Shown here one piece after another: positions 62,428 through 64,000 of a DNA stretch of 64,000 nucleotides. This DNA is from Bacteroidia bacterium (lineage in GTDB: Bacteria; Bacteroidota; Bacteroidia; Cytophagales; Cyclobacteriaceae), in contig JAUHYU010000012.1 in the NCBI GenBank assembly GCA_030426345.1, positions 1 to 64,000 of the forward strand. The letters run 5' to 3'. Below the pieces are notes generated by a model that was given only the letters and a program-made list of their open reading frames with translations, had not been told where the DNA came from and did not search any database. The position numbers and the translations under genes were made by a program. The number at the start of each line of letters is the position of its first letter. The stretch's first letter is position 1.

Positions 62428-64000
62428 ATGAAATTTCTTATTCATTCGTTGAATATGTTCATTTTAATCAATGTTTGCTCTCAGAGCATATCTTGGGGCA
62501 AACAAATGCTGCAAGGTGATAATAATCCTCCTATAATAATGGGCGTTGGGAATCAGCAGGTGGATGAAGATGGAACGCTTATTGTCCCCATTTCTGCCTA
62601 TGACATTGACGACCTTCCCCAAGATAATTTTACCGTTGTGGTTTTGGGGTCTTCAACTTCTGCAGGGTTTGGTGCCTCTGTCCCGGATAGTGCTTGGGTC
62701 AATCGGTTGATTGCCTGGCTTGGTGAACACACAAACTCACATACAGTGGAAAACCTTGCTGTAGGAGGATTTAGTACCGAAGACATTCGCCCCAACGGCA
62801 GCACGCCGTCACCTAATTCCCAAAAGAATATAACAAAAGCACTTACATACAATCCTGATCTGATCATTGTCAATCTCCCATCGAATAATGTTAGTGAAGG
62901 CATTCCTATTTCTACGACCATAGAACACTATTATGAGATCAAATCTATCGCAGATGCTGAAGGAATCCCATTATTGTTGACAACAACTCAGCCAAGAAAT
63001 TTTGACAATTTACCTGGTTCTAATCCCACGACGAAAAGACACTTGCTGGAAGAAGAAGCTAATGCTGTCAGAGCAGAGTTTGGAGAGTTGGTCATTGACA
63101 TTTATGATGAGCTGACGGATTTTGAAAATGACAATAGAATTAAGTCCATCTATAACAGTGGAGATGGCATTCATGTCAAAGACAATGGGCATCGATATAT
63201 TTTCAATACGGCAAAAGCGAAAGTTCCCCAGCCATTTAGCAGCAACAACATCACCTTGTCAGTCCAAAATTTACCCCCATTTGCGACTTTAAATGATAAT
63301 GGCAATGGTACCGGAAACATCACTTTTAATCCGGTCTACGGGGATGATGGAGTTTATAATAATATCATTGTCACGGCCACTGATGCGGAAAATGATTTTG
63401 ATAATACAGCATTTCAGTTGACTGTGAATGCGGGTTCTGGGATCAATGTTTTTACGCAAATAGCCACGGATGCAAGTTTGCCAAGTAACTGGCAAGACGA
63501 ATCTAGTACGCCTCTGACAGATTTTAATACACCAGGGGCGACATATTTTATTGGTCAAAATGTTTTACTTTCTTCAGGGTGGAATGTATCAGCTCCGGGG
63601 GCAAAATTGCAAGTAGCAAGTGGAGAGCAGTTTGATATGGATTTGAATGGTTTTAATCTTCAATTTACATCATTGAATTTGATGGATGGAGCAATCTTGA
63701 ATTTGACAAATAGCAACCCTGTAAAATCAACCATAGAAATTGAAGGGGACATAAACCTTAGAGATAACTCACTGCTTAATTTTGGAAAAGAACATTTGAT
63801 TATGAATGGTGGGGCTATTAATCCGGGCAATACAAACGGGCAACTATCTACATCTTCCGGAATACTGGAATTTCAAGGGGCAAATGAAAACCAGCATTAT
63901 TTGAACTTTGAACCTATCAATAATAGCCTGGAATCCATGATCATAAACACAAATTCGGGAACAGACGTGAACTTGAATTCTGATTGCAAAATCGAAAAAT
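62428..64000 (+). CDS. Surface protein with SGNH hydrolase inside an Ig-like domain (partial, 3' end outside)
   Basis: At least 524 residues, open to the window edge. The start ATG 62428 is followed by a hydrophobic segment (about 5-25) that may be a signal peptide. Residues 33-67 (NPPIIMGVGNQQVDEDGT, then LIVPISAYDIDDLP) are the first half of a cadherin/Ig-like repeat. Residues 68-270 are a complete SGNH/GDSL-type hydrolase: block I GSSTSAGFG with Ser76, block II NLAVGG, Asn153/154 in LPSNN, and D246-G-I-H249. Residues 272-334 (ITLSVQNLPPFATLNDNG, then GNGTGNITFNP, IIVTATDAENDFDN, FQLTVN) are the second half of the same Ig-like repeat. From 335 the sequence is rich in Asn, Leu and Ser and looks beta-helical. 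It is probably exported; the sorting domain, if any, lies outside. Confidence 0.85.
   Translation, partial: MKFLIHSLNMFILINVCSQSISWGKQMLQGDNNPPIIMGVGNQQVDEDGTLIVPISAYDIDDLPQDNFTVVVLGSSTSAGFGASVPDSAWVNRLIAWLGEHTNSHTVENLAVGGFSTEDIRPNGSTPSPNSQKNITKALTYNPDLIIVNLPSNNVSEGIPISTTIEHYYEIKSIADAEGIPLLLTTTQPRNFDNLPGSNPTTKRHLLEEEANAVRAEFGELVIDIYDELTDFENDNRIKSIYNSGDGIHVKDNGHRYIFNTAKAKVPQPFSSNNITLSVQNLPPFATLNDNGNGTGNITFNPVYGDDGVYNNIIVTATDAENDFDNTAFQLTVNAGSGINVFTQIATDASLPSNWQDESSTPLTDFNTPGATYFIGQNVLLSSGWNVSAPGAKLQVASGEQFDMDLNGFNLQFTSLNLMDGAILNLTNSNPVKSTIEIEGDINLRDNSLLNFGKEHLIMNGGAINPGNTNGQLSTSSGILEFQGANENQHYLNFEPINNSLESMIINTNSGTDVNLNSDCKIEK

Follow-up and report, generated by a model that had tools for sequence, protein, structure and literature searches.

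The DNA analysed here (the window) comprises the first 64,000 nucleotides of contig JAUHYU010000012.1 from a Bacteroidia bacterium of the family Cyclobacteriaceae, and close to its end lies a gene for a putative secreted protein in which an SGNH hydrolase is almost certainly lodged within a single immunoglobulin (Ig)-like repeat. The gene occupies positions 62428-64000 of the forward strand, on which all the features given below also lie, and its frame, devoid of internal stops, passes the window end to reach 65451 on contig C155 (L003:8452; L-, G- and C-numbers designate loci, genomes and contigs, respectively). Residues are counted on the full protein of 1007 amino acids, the N-terminus of which is signal-like as judged by eye. 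Residues 33-63 (62524-62616) correspond to strands A-B of a He_PIG/cadherin-like Ig repeat and residues 272-334 (63241-63429) to strands C-G. In between, residues ∼66-267 (62623-63228) constitute an SGNH/GDSL_2 hydrolase: the Lipase_GDSL_2 profile (PF13472) matches residues 72-256 over positions 1-177 out of 178, with 48.8 bits for a cutoff of 32.9 and an E-value of 1.6e-12. Its characteristic blocks are all there, i.e. block I, GSST (62647-62658), with Gly74 and the nucleophile Ser76 (62653-62655), block II with Gly113, block III, LPSNN (62875-62889), with Asn153 of the oxyanion hole, and block V, DGIH (63163-63174), with Asp246 and His249. In an alignment of 64 SGNH sequences, the Gly of block I and the Ser, Asn and His are invariant throughout, and the Asp is present in 63. 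The C-terminal region starts at residue 335 (63430-64000 for its part in the window) and consists of about 590 amino acids without Pfam match, followed by a weak sorting tail of the type IX secretion system (T9SS).

The interrupted repeat

In the native protein, Pfam recognizes He_PIG (PF05345) at residues 252-334 only, with 21.9 bits for a cutoff of 24, a low score which is to be expected of an interrupted domain. When residues 33-63 were joined in silico to residues 272-334, the match extended over positions 2-96 out of 96 and reached 26.9 bits; the second part alone gave 21.7 bits, and the first part alone gave no Pfam match. We also built a hidden Markov model (HMM) from nine uninterrupted repeats of other genomes, picked by their similarity to the window repeat, which was itself excluded. 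Against this model the joined repeat scored 95.7 bits, its first part covering positions 1-30 (16.6 bits alone) and its second part positions 32-92 (70.9 bits alone). Joins in which the first part was shuffled (n = 200) had a mean of 71.8 bits and a maximum of 81.3 and, since the score of the authentic join exceeds all of them, the nesting is more than a chance effect. When the joined repeat served as phmmer query, the 33-63 segment was found again, as well as end-to-end matches to uninterrupted repeats of other genomes, in which the corresponding parts adjoin each other to within 1-2 residues. In the window protein they are set apart by about 205 residues and, from the position in the host profile, the break falls between strands B and C. 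On these comparisons, residues 33-63 and 272-334 almost certainly make up one and the same He_PIG/cadherin-like repeat, with a complete SGNH hydrolase between them.

A preliminary description of the window had placed some 200 residues with the GSST, LPSNN and DGIH blocks of SGNH enzymes inside one Ig/cadherin-like repeat, and had suggested that the two halves might be found joined in homologues. Both ideas stand, the first segment now being trimmed to residues 33-63, and the nesting is borne out by the joined-half scores and shuffles as well as by the non-nested controls, the other genomes and the empty-site FnIII relatives treated below. Its picture of an esterase at a loop of a surface stalk is supported for the loop and not for the stalk: there is one Ig repeat, then an uncharacterised region, and Pfam matches over the complete protein, including the part encoded beyond position 64000, gave no further Ig repeats and a T9SS signal under the cutoff. 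The glycan deacetylation which it also put forward would be in keeping with the enzyme family and with the genes nearby. Two other ways to account for the arrangement were discarded, namely intein-like splicing, no intein-like domain being among the Pfam matches, and a chimera of the assembly, the same arrangement being carried by independent genomes.

Other hosts, free enzymes and empty sites

Relatives were collected by profile searches of draws, partly overlapping, from the family, the order and the phylum of the window. The SGNH clade was found in scattered Bacteroidota and in a small number of further genomes which the search grouped with the phylum. Besides the window, He_PIG hosts occur at L074, L078, L091, L087, L123 and L125. 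In four of these relatives (L074/L027, L078/L033, L091/L010 and L087/L043) the repeat is split in the same way and none of 200 shuffles reaches the joined score; L123, L125 and the frame-broken L090 are likewise split. At L090 (G141:C17:32136-32751), the He_PIG-nested SGNH is spread over two frames, owing either to a frameshift in the gene or to a sequencing error. A second type of host, in the same family, is the fibronectin type III (FnIII) domain (L025, L026, L075, L076, L079-L083, L085 and L115-L121): the SGNH lies between strand B (IDLSW) and strand C (YEVYRS), the N-halves match positions 2-26 of the FnIII profile and the C-halves positions 31-92, and the host usually comes directly after a PA14 domain. 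The third type is PKD-like, with four copies (L108, two at L109, and L111) in G661, a genome from the class to which the window belongs. There, the PKD-like (K319L) domain is split between positions 40 and 42, at a loop which differs from that of the FnIII and He_PIG hosts, and this is apparently a separate nesting event; for one of the four copies, 3 of 200 shuffles were as high as the joined score.

In an automatic junction test, flanks of fixed length on both sides of the SGNH were joined, the nested and non-nested classes having been set by eye beforehand. A single host-domain match crossed the junction in 27 of the 29 sequences classed as nested, and in none of the 22 non-nested ones with enough flank. 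The free enzymes start at the VVLGSST strand, without a segment resembling an N-half ahead of it. Two candidate FnIII hosts were rejected, L135, which failed the junction test, and L047/L089 (G263), the joined flanks of which gave no match. The SGNH of L089 (G263:C1:11702-12298) is very divergent and has an unidentified domain on both sides, matched after joining by none of the He_PIG, FnIII and PKD models. At L112 and L113 (G015 and G133), SGNH-like domains have GADA at the place of the GSST motif and have apparently lost the catalytic Ser. A viral contig (IMGVR_UViG_3300005077_000007, L114:963-6410) encodes a long, probably tail-related protein in which an SGNH of the same family follows a PKD domain and is non-nested. 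With the single window repeat as query, no He_PIG repeats were found in viral contigs; uninterrupted He_PIG repeats from viral contigs, which MAFFT spread across the SGNH region, were kept out of the input for structure prediction.

Hosts devoid of a guest were also found. Many genomes have uninterrupted PA14-FnIII units, which are frequent within the family, and PA14 followed by an uninterrupted FnIII is present in L004, a paralogue from the same genome as the window (contig C137, the 5′ end of the gene being cut by the contig). Residues 5-478 of L004, and in some cases also 487-546, align to the FnIII-hosted relatives and flank their SGNH insertion point. For He_PIG, the counterpart of the empty site is provided by the free repeats of other genomes. 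Residues 311-1007 of the window protein align to residues 499-1235 of L004 (33%, E = 2e-102); the C-terminal part is therefore shared between the two proteins, while the Ig-type host and the guest differ.

Possible substrate and history of the nested enzyme

We propose that the chain would exit the single He_PIG/cadherin-like Ig domain after strand B, fold the whole SGNH enzyme and re-enter the host for strands C-G; the nesting is read from the sequence, and the Ig domain would fold around its guest. In the SGNH fold, the start of the first strand and the end of the last helix are both opposite the active site, which suits insertion. Given this fold, the active site would be oriented away from the host, and two short connections should fix the enzyme more rigidly than a single flexible linker would. 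After export, presumably by the T9SS, the enzyme may remove O-acyl groups, probably acetyl, from a glycan located on the cell surface or close to it.

Such O-deacylation of a surface glycan is the likeliest function, even if our confidence in it is evenly balanced. We favour it because of the enzyme family, of the PA14 and of the second, α/β-hydrolase esterase-like domain that several relatives also carry, and of the neighbouring genes for O-acyl transfer and pentofuranose transfer. The neighbours of nested-SGNH genes encode an Acyl_transf_3 O-acyltransferase, a PorP/SprF protein and proteins resembling a phosphoribosyltransferase, DprE1 and DprE2, the latter three constituting a set linked to the addition of pentofuranose to surface glycans (PMC11127046); their presence suggests that a surface glycan is decorated with arabinofuranose. 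Genes resembling DprE1, DprE2 and decaprenyl-phosphate phosphoribosyltransferase lie beside nested-SGNH genes at L081:1652-5170, L077:15662-17761, L082 and L083, and, in the form of the phosphoribosyltransferase-like gene, at L003:11554-12456. Also on contig C155 and outside the window, L003:13193-15889 encodes a large protein in which an N-terminal α/β hydrolase is accompanied by seven or more PKD repeats; proteins of this type are conserved near SGNH-nested genes and adjoin a PorP/SprF-like gene in several relatives.

The main rival on the substrate is an extracellular lipase or polyesterase acting on lipids or polyesters, not on glycans, which we regard as possible and rather unlikely. Among the nearest solved relatives in sequence or fold are TesA/lysophospholipase L1 and 9otv, a putative polyesterase, and the α/β hydrolase encoded nearby resembles short-chain polyhydroxyalkanoate depolymerases. 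However, the fold is matched as well by carbohydrate esterases (CE) of families CE2 and CE3 and by the mannan esterase 6hfz, the PA14 of the FnIII-hosted relatives is of a type that often binds glycans, and the neighbourhood has the O-acyltransferase and pentofuranose-transfer genes. The fold comparison was made on the model of the relative L025, not on that of the window protein: the SGNH core, mostly with a predicted local distance difference test (pLDDT) score of 60-88, gave template modelling (TM) scores of 0.69-0.71 to TesA by target length. A phmmer search of the window region against PDB gave no match.

A tree built from 64 SGNH domains served to follow the history of the guest, the host groups being named from the flanks and not from the tree. 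The He_PIG- and FnIII-hosted SGNH stand on one side of a branch (support 89/91), with the exception of the long and doubtful L135, and those with a PKD host group apart from them (100/96). The window SGNH falls within an otherwise FnIII-hosted clade (100/97), and three genes located downstream of the window gene, for a GMC oxidoreductase, a protein of about 150 amino acids and an acyltransferase, recur in the same order at the FnIII-hosted L076 and L081. The approximately unbiased (AU) test rejected a single He_PIG-hosted clade (P = 0.0009) and a single FnIII-hosted clade (P = 0.008, L135 being left out). Because one clade per host is rejected, the host type very probably changed repeatedly while the enzyme stayed. 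A single insertion with host exchange, or several insertions, would both fit. It is unlikely, in our opinion, that nesting happened once and that the hosts differ merely through divergence of one ancestral Ig domain, with no exchange. The location of all the well-placed He_PIG- and FnIII-nested SGNH on one side of the 89/91 branch would agree with such a scenario, as would the fact that both hosts have an Ig fold and are entered by the guest at their B-C loop. But neither host type forms one clade, and the window host is nearer to several free repeats (39-41% identity, these having been picked by their similarity to the window) than to the other nested He_PIG hosts (22-35%).

As to activity, we are confident that the nested guest is a functional esterase. 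Several of the nested relatives have another residue in place of the Gly of block II, as might be expected of a catalytically dead spacer or binding module, but Gly113 is kept in the window protein, and none of the 29 nested sequences, widely divergent elsewhere, departs from the catalytic Ser, Asn, Asp and His; a dead guest is thus quite improbable. Lastly, the idea of two ordinary neighbours, a complete SGNH and, after it, a small Ig-like domain that is itself complete, residues 33-63 being a linker or part of the SGNH core, is hardly tenable: the C-half does score well against the repeat model by itself and the structure models leave the N-half unfolded, but the N-half corresponds precisely to the ∼30 initial positions that are lacking in each He_PIG host, and to the beginning of the domain in the FnIII hosts, no shuffle out of 200 reaches the joined score in most hosts, and none of the free enzymes shows a host across the junction.

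All in all, the explanation that we retain, a secreted SGNH enzyme in the B-C loop of an Ig-fold host, with changes of host and with O-deacylation of a surface glycan as its role, is probable. Several observations weigh against it. The T9SS type A sorting tail of the window protein (residues 925-980) is under the curated cutoffs, with 24.7 bits versus 27 for PF18962 and 21.6 versus 23 for TIGR04183; a T9SS sorting domain scores above cutoff in the relatives L025, L026, L078 and L091. AlphaFold was run on the window protein and on L025, with alignments of four rows each: the window model has a mean pLDDT of 55.8, its SGNH core being modelled and its host N-half being at 27-34, and the N-half remains below 40 in both models, so that the pairing of the halves in space is deduced only. 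Two sequences classed as nested, L123 and L135, failed the automatic junction test, and L123, not L135, passed with ends set by hand. The DprE1- and DprE2-like genes were seen near relatives, and near the window the phosphoribosyltransferase-like gene is the only one of the set that was seen. The neighbouring α/β-hydrolase protein resembles polyhydroxybutyrate depolymerases as well as carbohydrate esterases.

Relation to known systems and significance

The guest is like TesA-type proteins of the Lipase_GDSL_2/SGNH family in its profile match, its catalytic residues and, from the L025 model, its fold; however, members of that family are stand-alone or terminal, whereas here the domain is within another one. 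Similarly, the host is like He_PIG and bacterial cadherin-like repeats in that its halves, once joined, are matched over the full length of the model with a score above the cutoff, but it is a single, broken copy and not part of a tandem series. Two FnIII-hosted relatives, from Fulvivirga aurantia (L026) and from a Cyclobacteriaceae (L025), have the same SGNH clade and B-C loop as the window protein; unlike the latter, they have an FnIII as host, preceded by PA14, and are longer, an α/β hydrolase being at their N-terminus. The presence of two esterase-type domains per protein, as in L025, L026, L074, L078 and L091, is shared with the multicatalytic CE6-CE1 esterases of Bacteroidetes (PMC7110780), for which the portion of the article considered here describes an N-terminal CE6 and a C-terminal CE1 in sequence and does not mention nesting. 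A 2026 survey of domain insertions (PMC13114784) listed 48,551 events and found insertion across superfamilies to be common; inserted domains are usually smaller than their hosts (median of 115 versus 199 residues), in contrast with the guest of ∼200 and the host of ∼95 residues found here, and the words ‘SGNH’, ‘fibronectin’ and ‘immunoglobulin’ are absent from its main text. In the open-access literature searched, we came across no SGNH described within a loop of an Ig or FnIII domain; the separate elements (SGNH, He_PIG, FnIII and the insertion of domains) are known, and it is their arrangement here that appears to be without account in that literature.

The B-C loop of FnIII is much used in protein engineering, and the FnIII-hosted relatives constitute a natural case of an enzyme in that loop. 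The guest, about twice the size of its host, runs counter to the usual trend. There is a practical side to this, in that annotation pipelines would call such a host truncated or miss it, as Pfam does when it leaves the window He_PIG under the cutoff. Domain insertion is usually met singly, while here one guest goes with three host types, empty hosts, non-nested relatives and an apparent exchange; since guest, hosts, empty sites and non-nested relatives co-occur among related bacteria, the origin, the choice of loop and the effect of nesting can be directly compared. It may be, and we find this no more probable than the contrary, that the SGNH is a portable intradomain module which has settled repeatedly in Ig-fold loops (He_PIG, FnIII and PKD-like) of secreted Bacteroidota proteins and has been exchanged between He_PIG and FnIII hosts with the loop kept. 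If so, Ig-fold loops would be comparable to docking sites, taking up an entire enzyme that exceeds its host in size.
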